NCBI RefSeq assembly: GCF_002443295.1
Contig: NZ_BAOS01000005.1
Location: 124,001 to 188,000, forward strand
Direction of reading: 5' to 3'
DNA from: Candidatus Scalindua japonica
GTDB lineage: Bacteria; Planctomycetota; Brocadiia; Brocadiales; Scalinduaceae
DNA: 64,000 nucleotides
Both the position numbers and the translations under genes were made by a program. Shown here piece after piece: positions 802-58,846 of this stretch. Position 1 is the stretch's first letter, and each line of letters opens with the position of its first letter. The notes under the pieces were generated by a model. The model was given only the letters and a program-made list of their open reading frames with translations, did not search any database and was not told where the DNA came from.

Positions 802-817
802 TGGTACAATAATTGCG
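802..817 (+). promoter_or_regulatory. Sigma-54 promoter before the fliS operon
   Basis: TGGTAC-N5-TTGCG matches the sigma-54 consensus TGGCAC-N5-TTGCA, with GG and GC at the required spacing. Predicted transcription starts near 827, only a few bases before the ATG at 830, so that ORF would have almost no leader. The same pattern precedes seven other genes or operons in the window. Confidence 0.6.
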
Positions 818-17867: not shown

Positions 17868-18623
17868 CTATAAATCAGAAATAATTATGTTTATTCTATT
17901 GTCTGCTTTAGTTTTAAAAGATGACTCTTCTCCCAGCAGAGGTCGATACTTGCCATACCCAATTGCTGTCAATCTTGTATTATCAATCTTACCAATATCA
18001 TTAAAGTACCTTATAACTGCATCCGCAAATTCTGCCGACTTTTGCCAGCTTGTAGGACAGTCATCTGTTGGAACAAAATCCTCACTGGTAAATCCACCAA
18101 CAACAACCTTACAGTCCCTGTTTCGTATTATTTTTATTAAATTATTTAAATACATCTTACTTTCAGATGACATATCCAACTCTTCATTAATGAAATCTAT
18201 TTCTGTTGGAAAAACCAGTTGATGACCTGTTTTTGTATACTCAATATCTAAATTCTTATCAATTGTGTTAGCAAATACGTTCTTATCTAACTCTTTCTTC
18301 TTTTTATATTTGCCACTATAATTATCCAGTTTAATATCTAAATTGGATATTGAGTCACTACTACCTAATACAATCTTACTTACACCAAAATTATCCAATG
18401 CCTCTTTAAAAGAATCAATCGCCTCTTTTGCCTCTTCGTCTTTAATCGGCCCCACATTGGCGGATAGCATAATAAAAAATGCCAACAAAATAGTCATAAG
18501 TGCTGCGAAGGCAACCATATCTACAAAACTTGCATCTTCAGGTGGCTTCTTTTTTTTTCTTCTCACTACTGCAAAACCATTCTCCTGTTCATTTACCTTC
18601 GCTGCGTCTGCTGCATTAGACAT
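17868..18623 (-). CDS. Second MotB-like protein lacking the ion-binding aspartate
   Basis: 251 aa: a cytoplasmic basic start, one membrane helix (MVAFAALMTILLAFFIMLSA, ~36-55) and an OmpA-like C-terminal domain (KVVVGGFTS, then TRLTAIGYGKYRPL and ADNRINIII). In MotB the membrane helix has an essential Asp (YAD-x-MT); here that position is Ala41 (FAALMT). The OmpA domain is also altered: GFTS replaces GHTD and the Arg of the RA helix is missing. It overlaps the canonical motB by 8 bases. It cannot conduct ions alone in the usual way; a structural stator partner or a decayed copy are both possible. Confidence 0.8.
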   Translation of the reverse strand: MSNAADAAKVNEQENGFAVVRRKKKKPPEDASFVDMVAFAALMTILLAFFIMLSANVGPIKDEEAKEAIDSFKEALDNFGVSKIVLGSSDSISNLDIKLDNYSGKYKKKKELDKNVFANTIDKNLDIEYTKTGHQLVFPTEIDFINEELDMSSESKMYLNNLIKIIRNRDCKVVVGGFTSEDFVPTDDCPTSWQKSAEFADAVIRYFNDIGKIDNTRLTAIGYGKYRPLLGEESSFKTKADNRINIIISDL

Positions 18624-19332
18624 CCTGAGGTATCTCCTTTATAATTACCTCCACCCTTCTGTTCAAAGCACGATTATTATCGTTAGTGTTCGGATATAAT
18701 GGCCTTTTCCGTCCATACCCCGCAACGCCAAACCTGGAGGAGAGCAACATTTCTTCGTTAATTATGTAGTCACAAACTCTGGATGCACGTGCAATAGACA
18801 ATTTATCACCTGTATTGTTATTATCAGTATATCTATCATCAGTGTGACCTTCAATTCTGACATTATTTGGAATCACACTTAACAATTCCGCTATCTTATC
18901 TAATAGATACAGATATTCTAACTTCAGCGAGATATCACCCGTATCAAAAAGAATGTCAGCCATAATTCTTATCGTAAATCCCTCTTTAGTCTTCTGCAAC
19001 TCTATTACATCAAACAGTTCATTATCTTCCATAAACACAACAAGGTCTTCTTTTATTAATTCCAGTTCATCTATAGGAGGCAAAAGATCATAAGCATCAA
19101 CCATTATTTTTGTCTGACTTTTGACCTTTTTCTTAAATATGCCAGAATCCTTAAGTTCTGCAGCCATTAAATTATCACCAATACCGGTACTTTTCTTCAT
19201 CAATTCGATCTCTTCATCAGTTTTAGGAGAACTCATTGCTATTATTAACACAAAGAAGGTCATCAACAATGTAATCATATCGCCATAAGCCAATGCCCAT
19301 TCATTAGGATCTTTTTTTGGTTCTTCTTCCAT
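18616..19332 (-). CDS. motB: Flagellar stator protein MotB
   Basis: 238 aa. Membrane helix at ~13-33 contains the ion-binding Asp18 (AYGDMITLLMTFFVLI). The OmpA-like peptidoglycan-binding domain is intact: VRIEGHTDDRYTD, LSIARASRVCDYI, GYGRKRPL and NRRVEVII. It anchors the stator to the wall. Its start overlaps the motA stop by one base and its end overlaps the second MotB-like gene. Confidence 0.93.
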   Translation of the reverse strand: MEEEPKKDPNEWALAYGDMITLLMTFFVLIIAMSSPKTDEEIELMKKSTGIGDNLMAAELKDSGIFKKKVKSQTKIMVDAYDLLPPIDELELIKEDLVVFMEDNELFDVIELQKTKEGFTIRIMADILFDTGDISLKLEYLYLLDKIAELLSVIPNNVRIEGHTDDRYTDNNNTGDKLSIARASRVCDYIINEEMLLSSRFGVAGYGRKRPLYPNTNDNNRALNRRVEVIIKEIPQDV

Positions 19333-40061: not shown

Positions 40062-41285
40062 ATGATACATTTTAAAGCAAATTTGATTAGTAATGCTGGT
40101 AACTCCTCTAAATTAAGCTGTCTGATAATAGCAATAATGGGTTTTATTTTTCTTCTCACAGTGTTAGTTAATGCAGAAGAAACGATAATCCCAGGAAATG
40201 CAGAAATGGAAGCCGGATTCGTCAAACTACATAATAAGCGACAAATAGAAAAGGAGTTTCATCTTTATGCCACAGACGCTTACAGGAGAATGTCCGACGG
40301 AGAGGTTATCTATTTCTGGGGTTTTACTCATGCAAGAGCTTATGCTGACGTCGGAGAAATTACGACCAGAGAGGAGAGAGACGCAAAATTATTACCACTG
40401 AACTTACCCGGCGATGAATTACGTCTGAAATCAGGCAAAAATTATGTTATCGCCCTGCACAATGCCGGCTGGTATGAAACGGAAGAACATTCCGGCATTA
40501 ATAACGTTGCACATACCATTCATTTTCATGGATTAGATCTAATTCCATATGTTGATGGTGTACCAAAATTGCCATACCCGGCAGTATATCCAGGTGAGGT
40601 ATTCAGATATCTGTTAACAATACCAAAAGATATTGAGGGTTCATATATGGGTCACTGTCATGTAGATTCAACTAATCATATTATGGCTGGTATGTATTTC
40701 CCGTTAATTATTGAGAAAAAACCTAATCAAATCTATGGTTATGAATTTGATAGAGAATATACCATTTTCTTAAGTGAAATAGACAGCGAATATATGGAAA
40801 TGCTCAGAACCCTTGGACATATAAGACGGGGTCTTGACTGGAAATCAAATTATTTTATGATCAACGGAAGGATTTTTGCGGATAATCTGAAAAACCCACT
40901 ATCTACAGTTAACGATCCAAGGTCCAGGATTGTAGCTTATGACGGCGAGACTGTATTGATAAGACTAATGGCCATAGGATATGATCACATCTACGCGTGG
41001 CATCCTCACGCACATCACGGAAAGACTATCGGTAAGGACGGAAGAAAATTAAAATCCCCTTATGAACATGATACGCAACTTATTGGCTCGGGAGAGAGAT
41101 ATGATATCTTGTACAAAATCCCACCCGCTACTTCTAAGAGGGTATGTTTGTCCTGTAATATTGGACCAGGCATAAGCGTTGCTCATGATCATAATATGAA
41201 GGGTATGGTTAGCGCGGGTGTATATCCACACGGAGCTATGACAATTTTTGATATAAGATCAAGAAACCCTGAAAACCAGAAATAA
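40062..41285 (+). CDS. Two-domain multicopper oxidase-like secreted protein
   Basis: 407 aa. Signal peptide (LIIAIMGFIFLLTVLVNA). Copper-ligand motifs: HTIHFHG (His154, His156), HCHVDSTNHIMAGM (His198-Cys199-His200, His206, Met211) in domain 1, and HPHAHHG (314-320) plus HDH (375-377) in domain 2. The Cys of the type-1 copper site is only in domain 1, which would fit a type-C two-domain oxidase. Compared with laccases (HCH-x3-H-x4-M) the spacing is HCH-x5-H-x4-M. Substrate unknown; a role as nitrite reductase cannot be claimed. AAGGAG precedes the ATG. It stands alone among flagellar genes. Confidence 0.75.
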   Translation: MIHFKANLISNAGNSSKLSCLIIAIMGFIFLLTVLVNAEETIIPGNAEMEAGFVKLHNKRQIEKEFHLYATDAYRRMSDGEVIYFWGFTHARAYADVGEITTREERDAKLLPLNLPGDELRLKSGKNYVIALHNAGWYETEEHSGINNVAHTIHFHGLDLIPYVDGVPKLPYPAVYPGEVFRYLLTIPKDIEGSYMGHCHVDSTNHIMAGMYFPLIIEKKPNQIYGYEFDREYTIFLSEIDSEYMEMLRTLGHIRRGLDWKSNYFMINGRIFADNLKNPLSTVNDPRSRIVAYDGETVLIRLMAIGYDHIYAWHPHAHHGKTIGKDGRKLKSPYEHDTQLIGSGERYDILYKIPPATSKRVCLSCNIGPGISVAHDHNMKGMVSAGVYPHGAMTIFDIRSRNPENQK

Positions 41286-53143: not shown

Positions 53144-54250
53144 ATGATGAATAATAAAATTAAAGTATTAATTGTTGATGATTCTGCTGTTGTCAGAAAA
53201 ATATTATCCGGCGGTTTAAGCAAGTATAATGATGTCGAAATAGTCGGAACAGCACCGGATCCGTTTATAGCCAGGAATAAAATTATTAAATTCAAGCCGG
53301 ACGTACTTACGCTTGATGTTGAAATGCCAAAAATGGATGGAATCACATTTCTTAATAAACTGATGACACACTATCCTATACCCACAATCATGGTAAGCTC
53401 ACTTACTCAGGAAGGTTGTGATGCGGCATTAAAGGCGCTGGAAGTTGGCGCTGTAGACTTTGTCGCAAAGCCGACAAACCACTTGGGCAGTGATGTTGAA
53501 AATGTAATAGATGAGTTATACACCAAAATAAAACATGCATCCAGGAGCAATGTAATAAGACTCAATCAAAAAAGAATATTAGGGTGCAATGGAAATAATA
53601 ACCGTTCACAAATAAACAGATCTCAAATACATTCCGGATCTCGACCTGATAATGGAAAAAATTATACGGTTTTTAAAGGCACTAACAAAGTTATATTTAT
53701 TGGTGCCTCAACCGGAGGTACTGAAGCCTTGAAGGATGTCTTAATAAAGATGCCTCCCGACTCTCCTGCCATAGCTATTGTACAACACATGCCGCCAATT
53801 TTTACAAAGGCATTTGCGGAAAGAATGGACTCATTATGCTCTATCACTGTTAAGGAAGGTAAAAATGGTGACAGCCTTTTACCGGGGCAGGCAATAATAG
53901 CGCCAGGAAACTATCATATGAGCATAAAAAGAAACGGAGCTATGTACAGCATTGCAACAAATCAGGATGCGCCCATACATCACCAAAGACCCGCGGTAGA
54001 CGTTCTCTTCGATTCAGCATCAAAATATGTTGGGCCTAATGCAATAGGAGTTATTATGACCGGAATGGGATCTGATGGTGCAACCGGACTGTTAAAAATG
54101 AAAGAATCAGGAGCAAAAACTATTGCTCAAGATGAAGATAGTTGTGTTGTGTTTGGTATGCCAAAAGAAGCCATCAAATTAGGAGCTGCTGATAAAGTCG
54201 TACCATTACACAAAATCTCAGAGAATATACTATCTTTCTTAAAAAACTGA
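53144..54250 (+). CDS. cheB: Chemotaxis methylesterase/response regulator CheB
   Basis: 368 aa. Receiver (VDDSAVVRK; LTLDVEMPKMDG; VAKP), then the methylesterase/deamidase domain with Ser in FIGASTGGTEAL, His in QHMPPIFTKAFAERM and Asp in MTGMGSDGATGL. The linker has NNNRSQINRSQ, a polar stretch. It removes receptor methyl groups. Its stop overlaps the next ATG by one base. Confidence 0.96.
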   Translation: MMNNKIKVLIVDDSAVVRKILSGGLSKYNDVEIVGTAPDPFIARNKIIKFKPDVLTLDVEMPKMDGITFLNKLMTHYPIPTIMVSSLTQEGCDAALKALEVGAVDFVAKPTNHLGSDVENVIDELYTKIKHASRSNVIRLNQKRILGCNGNNNRSQINRSQIHSGSRPDNGKNYTVFKGTNKVIFIGASTGGTEALKDVLIKMPPDSPAIAIVQHMPPIFTKAFAERMDSLCSITVKEGKNGDSLLPGQAIIAPGNYHMSIKRNGAMYSIATNQDAPIHHQRPAVDVLFDSASKYVGPNAIGVIMTGMGSDGATGLLKMKESGAKTIAQDEDSCVVFGMPKEAIKLGAADKVVPLHKISENILSFLKN

Positions 54251-54840
54251 TGAAAGGCCATAATCAATACCGCAGTGAAGTTGAGATCATAAAAGATGCA
54301 CAAGTGAATATCACTGATGCTAACACCAATAATGACAAAACTTTGATAAGCCTTTTAAGGCATGAAATCTCACAACTCAAAGCAACTAACGCCTCTCTGA
54401 ATGTAAAATTACAAAGCCTTCGTGAAAAGCACTTACCCCATGTCTTCTTAGTTGAAGATGATTATGACACTTCACAGATCATTGCTGAAATCCTTCATGA
54501 TGATTACAACGTAATTGATGCTGGAAATGGAATTGAGGCACTAAGTATCTTACGCAAAGTAGGTAACGCTGGTAGTAGCGTCAAAAAAATTGATACAATA
54601 TTATTAGATATTAATTTACCCGGCATGTGTGGGTTTACATTATGCCATGAGGTAAAAAAGAAAATGAAATTGAACATCCCCATCATTGTATGTACGGCAA
54701 GAAATACTAAAAAGGATGTAATAAGGGCAATCAGTTCTGGAGCAAATGACTATATTATCAAACCATTTCAGGAAAAAACTTTAGTAAGTAAAGTTAACAA
54801 ATGGACAAAGGTAAACAAAAGATTACATATCAAATTATAA
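54250..54840 (+). CDS. Response regulator with N-terminal coiled coil
   Basis: 196 aa. Residues ~30-60 form a short coiled coil (LISLLRHEISQLKATNASLNV); the rest is a receiver with VEDDYD, phospho-Asp in ILLDINLPGM, Thr in CTARN and Lys in IKPF. Coupled to cheB. No output domain, so it may act through the coiled coil. Last gene of the che cluster; its stop lies 3 bases from that of the convergent 349-aa gene. Confidence 0.85.
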   Translation: MKGHNQYRSEVEIIKDAQVNITDANTNNDKTLISLLRHEISQLKATNASLNVKLQSLREKHLPHVFLVEDDYDTSQIIAEILHDDYNVIDAGNGIEALSILRKVGNAGSSVKKIDTILLDINLPGMCGFTLCHEVKKKMKLNIPIIVCTARNTKKDVIRAISSGANDYIIKPFQEKTLVSKVNKWTKVNKRLHIKL

Positions 54841-54842
54841 TC

Positions 54843-55892
54843 CTACATTCTAAAAGGAATTAGCGAAGGTATAGTCTCAATAATTTTCCTGAAACTGGTA
54901 TTCCTTACATATTTCCATTCCTTCTCATCTTGCTTTACTTCCGGTGTGGTAATATTATTTATAATTGGCAAACCTTTAAAACCCTTTGACAACTTAAAGG
55001 AACGGGTTCTCATAGACGCATCACCCCCGGGAATAACATCCATGACAAAGTCCATAACCACCTGGGTATTGTCAAAAAGTGCGGTTGTAACCTTTCTACC
55101 GGCTTTAATATTCCCTATTGTTGCATCAGGTACAGCCTCAACCGCGTTTAAACCCGCAAATATAATATCTTCTCCTACGTGTATAGCGCTCTTTGGTACT
55201 CCCTTAACAATATCACCAACTAACGCGTCTTTAAAAATCTTCTTAAACAGATGCTTAATTCTACCAATACCACCATGAGGCTTCGGCTCTCCGTCGGGGT
55301 TATATAGACCAAAGGACAAACCACTTGCAACATCTTTAAAGAAGTTAACTACTGTCCCTGCCAAGCCGACCTTTCTACCATCTCTTATATTACCATGTTT
55401 ATCTACATACTTAATCTTTGCTCCAATACCTAAATCCTTGACCGCGTTCAGAAGGTTATTACCGGCATCCGCCAAATCTTTTCCAACCCTCATTGTAATA
55501 CTTGAATGATCAAAATTTTTATCAATTACTTCATCTGACTTATTTAAAAAGAAATTATCACCACCCGGATTGGATAATAGCTGATCCTCTTTATACATCT
55601 TATATTGTTCAATTACTGAAGACTTAGATGGTTCGTTTACACCTTTACTTTCAAAAAAATTTTCTGGGAACGGATTAACTTTATATTTATTTAGTGGCAT
55701 AAAGTGTTTTTGAGGATGTTTTAATGCACTACTATTTTTTACCCCTACTGTTTCATCGTAAAGAGCTTTACCGAATGGCAATTTCTTTGATGTGTTATTA
55801 AAAGCCAGAACATCAGAATTGTTAAGCTTAGACACTCCCTTTGTAAATGCTTCCGTGATAAACTGTGAGTTATTAATAGTATTAATATTCAT
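54843..55892 (-). CDS. Unrecognised 349-aa protein with sigma-54-type promoter
   Basis: No family recognised. No signal peptide, no Cys. The N-terminal ~125 residues are polar (many Asn, Lys, Ser); the part from ~135 to ~320 is Gly/Val/Ala-rich with amphipathic stretches (GLAGTVVNFFKDVASGLSFGLY; HVGEDIIFAGLNAVEAVPDATIG; VVMDFVMDVIPGGDASMRTRSF). The polar start followed by amphipathic stretches without a signal peptide resembles type-III-secreted proteins, which is only a hint. A sigma-54-type promoter like that of fliS lies ~120 bases upstream. It is convergent with the che cluster. Confidence 0.7.
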   Translation of the reverse strand: MNINTINNSQFITEAFTKGVSKLNNSDVLAFNNTSKKLPFGKALYDETVGVKNSSALKHPQKHFMPLNKYKVNPFPENFFESKGVNEPSKSSVIEQYKMYKEDQLLSNPGGDNFFLNKSDEVIDKNFDHSSITMRVGKDLADAGNNLLNAVKDLGIGAKIKYVDKHGNIRDGRKVGLAGTVVNFFKDVASGLSFGLYNPDGEPKPHGGIGRIKHLFKKIFKDALVGDIVKGVPKSAIHVGEDIIFAGLNAVEAVPDATIGNIKAGRKVTTALFDNTQVVMDFVMDVIPGGDASMRTRSFKLSKGFKGLPIINNITTPEVKQDEKEWKYVRNTSFRKIIETIPSLIPFRM

Positions 55893-56429
55893 AATAGTTT
55901 TTCTTATAAATTAATTACAATGCTGTGTTGGTTAATAAAAAAGATCCTCTCTCTAAACAGCCAAGTCTATTTAATGTCACATCAATACTGCCAGCACATA
56001 CTAAACACAAACATATTTTTCGCAAATATTGTACCTCTTATACAACAAACTTGTCAATTTTCAAGTACCGTGTAAAGCATGAGATAATAACACATTACGA
56101 ACAGATATCTCCAATTTCTTTATATTCTATGAAGAACAGCGCTGTATAGAGGAAGGGATTAACCAGCCAAAAGGCAATAATAGCTTATAGTATCATGATC
56201 AGTACATCTCTTTTTCAGATAATTTATAGTTGATTTAGCCTTTTATGTGAGAAAAAGTACAGTTTTTTTGTTTTTGCGTTTACCCGGCAAACCTATCTTG
56301 ATGCAATTCTAAACATATTGCAGATAATTTAAATAGAATTTCCCAGCTGCTGTTGATTGCTTGGAATGATATAATTTGATAACGCCACAACATCTCAAAA
56401 CTTCGTATCGAACCGTTTTAAGACTATTC
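55893..56429. other. 537-base intergenic region
   Basis: AT-rich. It holds the sigma-54-type promoter of the 349-aa gene at 56021-56036. From 56100 to 56429 nothing is recognisable; no terminator is obvious for the kinase fragment ending at 56430. Confidence 0.45.
56021..56036 (-). promoter_or_regulatory. Sigma-54 promoter before the unknown 349-aa gene
   Basis: Minus strand AGGTAC-N5-TTGCG, nearly the same as the site at 802-817 (TGGTAC-N5-TTGCG). Predicted start ~118 bases before the ATG. Confidence 0.55.
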
Positions 56430-56870
56430 TCATTTAGATATGTTTTCAGTTGAGCAGTCACTGATGATTTTATGTAGCTTATCAAGCTCAATTGGTTTAT
56501 TTAAAATGAAATCTACACCTTCCTTCTTATAGTCTATATTATCCGCATCCAGCTCATAACCGGTAATCAGAACAACCGGAGTTTTAGTCCTTTTCCTTAC
56601 GGCATCATACTCTTTAATGAATTTGGCTACCTGCCAACCATTTAGCTTTGGCATTGCCAGGTCACATAAAACAATATCGTATATATGATTTTCATACATC
56701 TCGATACCAACACTTGAATCCTGTGATACAAATACATTATGCCCTCTTGACTCCAGGAGAATTTTCATCATGTCCAATATTACTTCTTCATCTTCTATAA
56801 CAAGTATGTTTGCATTATGAGCATCAACAACCCTGGTCTGAACATTTAGCTTTGGCATTGCCAGGTCCAT
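56430..56870 (-). pseudogene. Detached receiver domain of a broken hybrid kinase
   Basis: 146 codons. From VDAHNANILVIEDEEVILDMM on it is a full receiver: phospho-Asp in IVLCDLAMPKLNG, Thr/Ile in LITGYE, Lys in LNKPI. Its first residues (MDLAMPKLNVQT) are translated from the second copy of a tandem duplication. Removing bases 56840-57041 makes it continuous with the kinase upstream as one 647-aa hybrid protein, so this is probably not a separate gene. Confidence 0.75.
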
Positions 56871-57041
56871 AAAACAATATCGTATATATGATTTTCATAC
56901 ATCTCGATACCAACACTTGAATCCTGTGATACAAATACATTATGCCCTCTTGACTCCGGAGAATTTTCATCATGTCCAATATTACTTCTTCATCTTCTAT
57001 AACAAGTATGTTTGCATTATGAGCATCAACAACCCTGGTCT
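56639..57041. repeat. Tandem duplication of ~200 bases inside the hybrid kinase
   Basis: Copy A is 56639-56839 (201 bases), copy B 56843-57041 (199 bases), with GAA between. They agree throughout except that B lacks one base in AGGTC(A)CAT and one in CTCC(A)GGAG. Copy A is in frame; copy B is frame-shifted. Confidence 0.95.
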
Positions 57042-58575
57042 CTTCCGCGTCGGATTGTTCTATTTCTGCATCAAACAGTGGTATTTTTAATAGTATCGTA
57101 GTCCCTTCACCAACGTAACTATCAACCAGGATTTCACCATCATGCCTGGCAATAATGCTGTATGACAAGCTCATACCCAATCCAGACCTTTTTACACCTT
57201 TAGTAGAAAAAAAAGGATCAAATATCTTATCTTTAATATCATCCTTTATGCCAATGCCATTATCCTTGATTGTAATTATCGCATTATTCTCATCTGTTTT
57301 TATTGACGTCTCAATCTTACCTCCATTTGGCATAGCATCAATACTGTTATTAACTATATTGATAATAACTTCACGTAATTCTGAAGGATTACACCTGGTG
57401 CGGTACTTTGACGAGGTAAAATTATTTTTAATAATTTCATATTCAATTCCTTTCGATTGAGCTTCGGTCTTCCATCTTGGCATGGTAAATTCCAATGCAT
57501 CATTAACGACATCTATCAGATCAATAAGCTTCTCTTCTTTTTCATGTTCTTTCTTAATCCTGGAGAATTGCTGAATTTTATCAACAATTTCTGATCCATC
57601 GCGTGCTGCCTTTTCAATTACTTTAAGAGCATCCAAAACCTTTTCGCTAACGTCCCCAAGGTCCTGCTTCACTATTTCCAGGTATCCAAGTATTATCCCG
57701 AGAATATTATTGAATTCATGTGCAACTCCGCTTGACTGTAATCCTAATGCATTCAATTTGTCTATTTGAAACAACTTCTGCTCAAATTCTTTTCGTCCTG
57801 TAATATCCCTTACAACACCTTCAAAACCGGTTACATTACCACTACTATCATAACCAACATTGGCGTTCAGCTGGACATCTTTTACTCTACCATTGCCGGT
57901 CATTATTCTAAACTCAAACCCTTCCAGGAGTTCTCTATTACCGGCAAAAGACCCTTTGATACAATCTATAATTTTTTCTCTATCCGCTTCATATATTAAA
58001 TCGTAAAAGTTCAAACCTTTAATTGCTTCGCATGAGTATTCAAAAACTCTCTGGCCGGCAAGATTAATTGAAATAATCTTTAACTCTTTGTCAGTTGTAA
58101 AGACCACATCAATCATATTATCAATCAATGTCTTGTATTTTAATTCAGACATCCTCAAATCATTTTCAACCTTTTCTTTTTCTTTTTTCAGCTTTGGTTC
58201 CTGAATCGCTCTATGTACAATTACTGACAATCTCTGTAAATAGTCTTCCGATTTAACAACATAATCAAAAACACCAAGTTTCATCGCTTCAACAGCAACG
58301 TTTTCATCTCCAAATGCTGTTACCATCACGACCGGAATATTATATTTTTTACAATGCATGCTTCTTAACACTTCTAATCCATTCATATCAGAAAGGCTAA
58401 AATCAATAATAACCGTATCATATTTTCCTTTTGACAATAAAAGTAGACACTCTTGGCCAGTACCTGCAAACACAATATTTGCCTCCTGAACAGATTGCAT
58501 CAGAGCTTCTTTCATCAGTATTTGATGGTCCTCATTGTCATCAACAATTAATATGTTTGATTTCTCGATACTCAC
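56824..58575 (-). CDS. Hybrid sensor kinase (receiver-PAS-kinase), 3' end disrupted
   Basis: 583 codons from GTG 58575, which has AAGGAG eight bases upstream. Receiver 1 (NILIVDDNED, Asp in VIIDFSLSDMNG, Lys in VVKSED), PAS (~170-290 of the longer reading), His box SSGVAHEFNNILGI, ATPase domain (INIVNNSIDAMPNGG, DNGIGI, GLGMSLSYSI). After VDAHNANILVIEDEEVILDMMKIL the frame is lost in copy B of a duplication, and ~45 residues of shifted sequence follow. Its true C-terminal receiver is the ORF at 56430. No membrane segment; cytoplasmic. Confidence 0.85.
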   Translation of the reverse strand: MSIEKSNILIVDDNEDHQILMKEALMQSVQEANIVFAGTGQECLLLLSKGKYDTVIIDFSLSDMNGLEVLRSMHCKKYNIPVVMVTAFGDENVAVEAMKLGVFDYVVKSEDYLQRLSVIVHRAIQEPKLKKEKEKVENDLRMSELKYKTLIDNMIDVVFTTDKELKIISINLAGQRVFEYSCEAIKGLNFYDLIYEADREKIIDCIKGSFAGNRELLEGFEFRIMTGNGRVKDVQLNANVGYDSSGNVTGFEGVVRDITGRKEFEQKLFQIDKLNALGLQSSGVAHEFNNILGIILGYLEIVKQDLGDVSEKVLDALKVIEKAARDGSEIVDKIQQFSRIKKEHEKEEKLIDLIDVVNDALEFTMPRWKTEAQSKGIEYEIIKNNFTSSKYRTRCNPSELREVIINIVNNSIDAMPNGGKIETSIKTDENNAIITIKDNGIGIKDDIKDKIFDPFFSTKGVKRSGLGMSLSYSIIARHDGEILVDSYVGEGTTILLKIPLFDAEIEQSDAEETRVVDAHNANILVIEDEEVILDMMKILRSQEGIMYLYHRIQVLVSRCMKIIYTILFYGPGNAKAKCSDQGC

Positions 58576-58846
58576 TACCACAACTCCTTCCATTACTTTT
58601 ACTTCCATTCGTCGTCTGAAGTGTATCCAGAATAACCTGTTTCTCAATATCCTTCATCATTGTGCCTGATGGAATCAGGAATGCATCTTTTCTCGAACCC
58701 TTAGTATCGATTAATTGTAAAGCCTCATCACCCGTATAAACACAACTGATTCCATAACCATCCTGCAAAAAAAATTTCCATAAACCATTAGCTGCATTCT
58801 TGTCGTAATCTACTAATAGAATTTCCGGTTTGTTAATTTTATTAAG
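58541..58846 (-). pseudogene. Remnant of an NtrC-type response regulator
   Basis: An open frame that follows the PAS kinase. It begins like a receiver (KPEILLVDYDKNAANGLWKFF, then GYGISCVYTGDEALQLI) and then jumps to the start of a Fis-type C-terminus (IPSGTMMKDIEKQVILDTLQTTNGSK). The phospho-Asp, the whole AAA+ domain and the recognition helix are missing. No ATG, GTG or TTG lies before the receiver part (only ATT at 58837). It looks like the partner regulator of the kinase, lost by an internal deletion. Confidence 0.65.

Follow-up and report, generated by a model that had tools for sequence, protein, structure and literature searches.

The closest described counterparts of the gene studied here are the early substrates of the flagellar type III export apparatus and the Cia/Fed type of flagellar co-regulated secreted proteins in Campylobacter, which are controlled along with the flagellum and may leave the cell through it. 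Early substrates carry a gate-recognition motif, which we take to read F-x3-hydrophobic. In the passages of the Salmonella study that describe this motif (eLife 2022 e66264), every rod and hook subunit has it 30 residues or more from the N-terminus; in FlgD it corresponds to residues 36-40 (FLTLL), and it works together with small non-polar or hydrophobic residues near the N-terminus. The E. coli proteins FlgB, FlgD, FlgE, FlgF, FlgG and FlgJ likewise present F-x3-hydrophobic at 34-45, and FlgC is without it. A large part of nitrogen loss is driven by anammox bacteria, whose unusual envelope includes an S-layer. Searches of the open literature showed next to nothing about the construction of their flagella and nothing on the present gene, and the passages of PMC7438415 that deal with Kuenenia flagellar genes do not name it.

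The gene lies in a 64,000-nucleotide stretch of Candidatus Scalindua japonica DNA (the window; Table 1), in which a sequence-only reading had placed a protein of no recognised family right after the che cluster. The open reading frame proved to be a genuine gene with Brocadiales homologues, and the position next to che was confirmed, the gene being convergent with the last plus-strand che ORF (54250-54840) and lying 2 bases beyond its end. Searches of Pfam, NCBIfam and PDB returned no match for the protein, bearing out the lack of a recognised family; nor did they show a resemblance to any known chaperone or regulator. Profile searches with the family against Pfam, NCBIfam, PHROGs and PDB gave nothing usable (best scores, E 0.006 for two members in PHROGs and 0.14 in Pfam), and plasmid and phage collections contained no match. 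Homology to the known rod, hook, cap and ruler proteins (FlgB/C/D/E/F/G/J, FliK) was not detected, and hhalign comparison with 18 flagellar proteins of the same genome, a set that left out FliE, reached a best probability of 1.6% (FlgE), indicating no homology. AlphaFold models of seven Scalindua-type sequences were unusable (pLDDT 29.5 over the whole length and 31.3 for the core).

Table 1. Coordinates of the target gene, its protein regions and the sigma-54-type sites in the window.
Feature	Coordinates	Strand	Basis or remark
Target gene, 349-aa protein of no recognised family	54843..55892	-	ATG start; homologues and profile searches
Codons 1-90, variable Asn-rich N-terminal region	55623..55892	-	mean column entropy 2.28 bits
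Codons 91-349, conserved core	54846..55622	-	mean column entropy 1.01 bits
Candidate gate-recognition motif F-G-K-A-L-Y-D-E, codons 40-47	55752..55775	-	F-x3-hydrophobic-x2-E in alignment
Sigma-54-type -24/-12 site AGGTAC-N5-TTGCG	56021..56036	-	predicted transcript start near 56010; conservation among homologues
Sigma-54-type site ahead of fliS, nearly identical	802..817	+	strict-pattern scan

Whole-genome searches covering the order Brocadiales, its class and its phylum identified homologues in 36 of 59 Brocadiales genomes, as a single copy free of internal stops in 35 of them and as two pieces on two contigs in the remaining one (G018); those of same-genus relatives are 65-78% identical to the target. 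A further genome that is 58% complete (G416) gave only a 22-residue partial match and was left out of the count. The phylum search, performed with a 30-row profile on 392 genomes, returned 22 Brocadiales matches and one match outside the order, which was judged to be due to chance (G347, a FliF-positive genome; E 8e-4, inside a 1077-residue frame). In the class search (75 genomes) matches were confined to Brocadiales, and none of the 13 genomes from other orders of the class harbored the gene, though four of the 13 encode FliF. Among the genomes of the phylum and class sets, the gene is by these searches restricted to Brocadiales.

The features that had been read as compatible with export fared unevenly across the family. 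The hydropathy profile revealed no N-terminal hydrophobic stretch, in agreement with the proposed absence of a signal peptide and setting the protein apart from the Sec-secreted class; the best 19-residue window has a mean of only 1.15 and starts at residue 236. The Asn-rich start was also substantiated (Asn makes up 14.4% of residues 1-90). Residues 91-349, described as a Gly/Ala/Val-rich half, are rich in Gly (10.0%) and Val (8.5%) but not in Ala (5.8%), and the predicted character of this core is amphipathic and Gly-rich. Cys is indeed absent from the target, but only 10 of 30 aligned members share this absence, and it was rejected as an export signature; as arguments for the family, the compositional ones (no Cys, Gly/Ala/Val-rich) thus fail.

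The promoter comparison was confirmed, the target's AGGTACAATATTTGCG and the fliS operon's TGGTACAATAATTGCG being identical at 14 of 16 bases. A strict sigma-54 pattern ([ATG]GGYAY-N5-TTGC) occurs upstream of the gene in 31 of 35 distinct homologue loci, comprising 27 of the 30 in a first set and four of five additional ones (L060-L064; L063 is without a strict site), with only 32 strict matches per 233,944 positions when everything scanned in the 30 first-set loci is counted on both strands. In L010, L013 and L026, one-mismatch sites can be discerned by eye; a looser scan did not show them, and they were scored as misses. Across loci, 16 to 225 bases separate the -12 GC from the first in-frame start. 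The window contains seven strict sites, against a mean of 1.2 and a maximum of 3 in 40 first-order Markov simulations, and a slightly narrower pattern yields 145 matches genome-wide, compared with 50 for the reversed pattern. On names assigned by reading translations, strict matches in the window also lie ahead of fliS, fliO, flgB, a TPR gene (31577) and an HD-GYP gene, and one falls inside a multicopper oxidase gene; elsewhere in the genome, which encodes a single RpoN, a strict site precedes flgI (contig C4). A sigma-54 weight matrix placed the target site 43rd in the window and did not set window sites apart from simulated sequence, whereas the narrower pattern combined with conservation among homologues did; the promoter case therefore rests on conservation. 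The consensus was checked against passages of PMC3844500. The upstream -24/-12 site expected of a sigma-54 flagellar regulon member is thus conserved, and we infer that transcription of the target depends on sigma-54.

Within the fast-evolving N-terminal region, F40 is the sole invariant residue before residue 96. It opens an F-x3-[ILM]-x2-E motif in which, over 30 aligned members, F is found in 30, I, L or M at +4 in 30, and E at +7 in 28; five more homologues (L060-L064, including two of family f4) retain the motif at residues 31-44, and in members with an unextended start the motif F lies at F31 to F44. The target therefore carries F-x3-hydrophobic at least 30 residues from its N-terminus, as early type III substrates do. 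In the same genome, the corresponding F was located at F40 in FliK and FlgJ, F41 in FlgF and FlgG (FQDLLYDKF), F42 in FlgE and F44 in FlgB. FlgC presents the motif at about residue 53 from its likely start, FlgD has several instances at 16-80, and residues 30 to 55 of the late substrates FlgK and FlgL are free of it. By itself F-x3-hydrophobic is a weak motif. Since about 11% of 292 ORFs of at least 200 aa carry it with F at 38-44, its position alone is modest evidence; the invariance of the candidate motif is stronger evidence than its position. The target also has I3 and I6 near its N-terminus, and 22 of 30 members carry Ile at column 6; such residues are common. An invariant F-x3-hydrophobic at the presumptive gate-recognition position lends specific support to the putative flagellar export.

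We compared the distribution of the gene with that of FliF, which is present in 34 of the 59 Brocadiales genomes. The gene occurs in 33 of the 34 FliF-positive genomes and is absent from 22 of the 25 FliF-negative ones (Fisher p 5e-12, relatedness ignored). FlhA was likewise found in 34 of 59 genomes, one match (G034) being partial and below the family cut-off. Homologues limited to non-flagellated relatives, which the sequence-only reading had named as evidence against itself, are the opposite of what was found, and, with promoters conserved and FliF co-occurring, its assignment of the gene to a putative sigma-54 flagellar regulon is well supported. Gene and FliF are jointly absent from all nine sampled f2 genomes, from genus g16 and from part of genus g1, and both states are present in genera g1 and g14. 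Given the f2 genomes without both and the mixed state of g1 and g14, this distribution implies several putative independent losses. Large, near-complete genomes are among those without both (G034, G040 and G047, 3.8-4.1 Mb and 99% complete; G004, 4.5 Mb). CheB is more widespread (44 of 59 genomes, eight of them without the gene), indicating that presence of the gene tracks flagella better than it tracks chemosensory systems; as CheB is wider than the gene (36 of 59), a chemotaxis-only role was rejected.

Exceptions to the association are few. FliF is present and the gene match absent in G054 (83% complete) and, outside the 59, in G417 (95% complete, 790 contigs); two further Brocadiales genomes show, respectively, neither gene nor FliF (G415) and the partial gene match without FliF (G416). 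Conversely, G024, G032 and G050, two of which are rated 99% complete, harbor the gene without FliF. Each of them encodes four Flg_bbr_C proteins (hook/rod genes), and Flagellin_N matches number three each in G032 and G050 and one in G024; because these are kept, the three genomes may reflect flagellated ancestry, or a fli cluster that was lost or lies on a missing contig. The hook cluster is retained in G028, which has neither FliF nor the gene. G024, G028 and G032 (99% complete) have hook/rod genes but neither FliF nor FlhA, pointing to partial flagellar loss or missing contigs, and in the single-contig genome G026 the FlhA match (C1:618126-620040) is broken over several frames with many stops, by frameshifts or in a decaying gene, while FliF and the target are intact.

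Despite the conserved site, gene order around the target varies among homologue loci. The gene faces the che operon in convergent orientation in Scalindua-type loci (L031-L035), and a cheA cluster likewise in G021. In G039 its neighbours are the che operon on one side and, on the other, a cluster read as fliW-flgL-flgK-flgN-flgJ-flgI-flgH. A flagellin gene is found within about 7 kb in G036 and G038. In most other Brocadiaceae, and also in G013, G015 and G016, the gene sits among other, unrelated genes.

Taken together, we consider it probable that the target is a Brocadiales-specific accessory flagellar export substrate of the rod/hook stage under sigma-54 control. A sigma-54 promoter would drive its expression alongside that of the early flagellar operons. 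In its flexible N-terminus, the gate-recognition motif (F40-GKA-L44) and the hydrophobic residues I3 and I6 would dock it at FlhB-C, and while rod and hook are being assembled it would pass through the type III export channel of the flagellum. Beyond the inner membrane, the conserved core, amphipathic and Gly-rich, would have the rod and hook or their surroundings in the anammox envelope as its place of action. The family, its distribution, the promoter sequence and the conserved motif are direct observations, and membership in the regulon is close to certain. Export as an early substrate is likely on these predicted features; we infer the docking, the export and the place of action, and the final role after export is a guess. 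Like FlgB, FlgE, FlgF, FlgG, FlgJ and FliK, the target has F-x3-hydrophobic at 40-44 and no signal peptide, and a sigma-54-type site also precedes flgB and flgI in its own genome; unlike them, it has neither sequence similarity nor a rod/hook family match and, within the genomes searched, is confined to Brocadiales. The genome's flagellar set includes, by reading, FliK, FlgD, FlgE, FlgF, FlgG, FlgA, FlgH, FlgI, FlgJ, FlgN, FlgK, FlgL and FliE, so the target is not obviously a stand-in for a missing core part. A more specific version, held only tentatively, is that the target is a flagellar component, axial or periplasmic, which arose a single time in Brocadiales, is exported at the rod/hook stage, helps the flagellum to pass or seal the anammox envelope and has no counterpart in other bacteria.

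The same promoter and motif evidence would serve a non-structural protein that is secreted through the flagellum and acts on surfaces, matrix or neighbours, not on the flagellum, and both the amphipathic Gly-rich core, dissimilar to axial proteins, and the lack of a fixed place for the gene inside flagellar clusters would suit it. We regard this as unlikely, given that a single strongly conserved copy (core entropy 1.01 bits) in nearly all flagellated Brocadiales is more part-like than expected of a niche effector. The Campylobacter Cia/Fed type, likened here by description, resembles the target in flagellar regulation and possible flagellar secretion, but the target has an early-type motif and is a fixed gene of an environmental order. 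Flagellar co-occurrence and the motif are both compatible, too, with a factor for flagellar assembly or regulation that stays in the cytoplasm and uses the same motif to dock at the export gate, as is the tolerance of Cys in 20 of 30 aligned members; such a factor seems quite improbable, however, as the motif occupies the substrate position (F31 to F44) in a variable tail, like that of exported subunits, and the Pfam, NCBIfam and PDB searches linked the protein to no known chaperone or regulator. Retention without FliF in three genomes and the mostly non-flagellar surroundings in Brocadiaceae would fit a sigma-54 gene with no flagellar role, lost alongside flagella upon genome shrinkage or habitat change, but the large near-complete genomes that have neither gene nor FliF (G034, G040, G047, G004), the invariant gate-recognition-like motif and the linkage that several lineages show to che or flg loci make this barely credible.

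If the accessory-substrate reading is correct, a fixed, order-specific export substrate would represent a new flagellar part, and the F40 motif would speak independently for the validity of the FlhB gate-recognition code beyond model bacteria. FlgJ, known as a rod-cap/muramidase, offers another point of comparison. The genome's own FlgJ (L078 13215-13547) is only 110 aa and, by reading, comprises the rod-binding part without the muramidase domain, so another protein might supply the missing part; the target has no peptidoglycan-hydrolase family match and no similarity to this FlgJ.

Several further observations were made in the window, with gene names again assigned by reading. Two adjacent MotB-like genes follow motA (17868-19332), and the multicopper-oxidase-like gene (40062-41285) separates the flagellar block from the che block. 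Two ORFs (56430-56870 and 56824-58647) make up a split sensor kinase/receiver gene, whereas its relatives in L033, L034 and L035 are single ORFs of 645-657 aa. The split coincides with an exact direct repeat (56665-57041; 90 + 84 nt, spacing 202-203), which represents either a recent tandem duplication or an assembly error.
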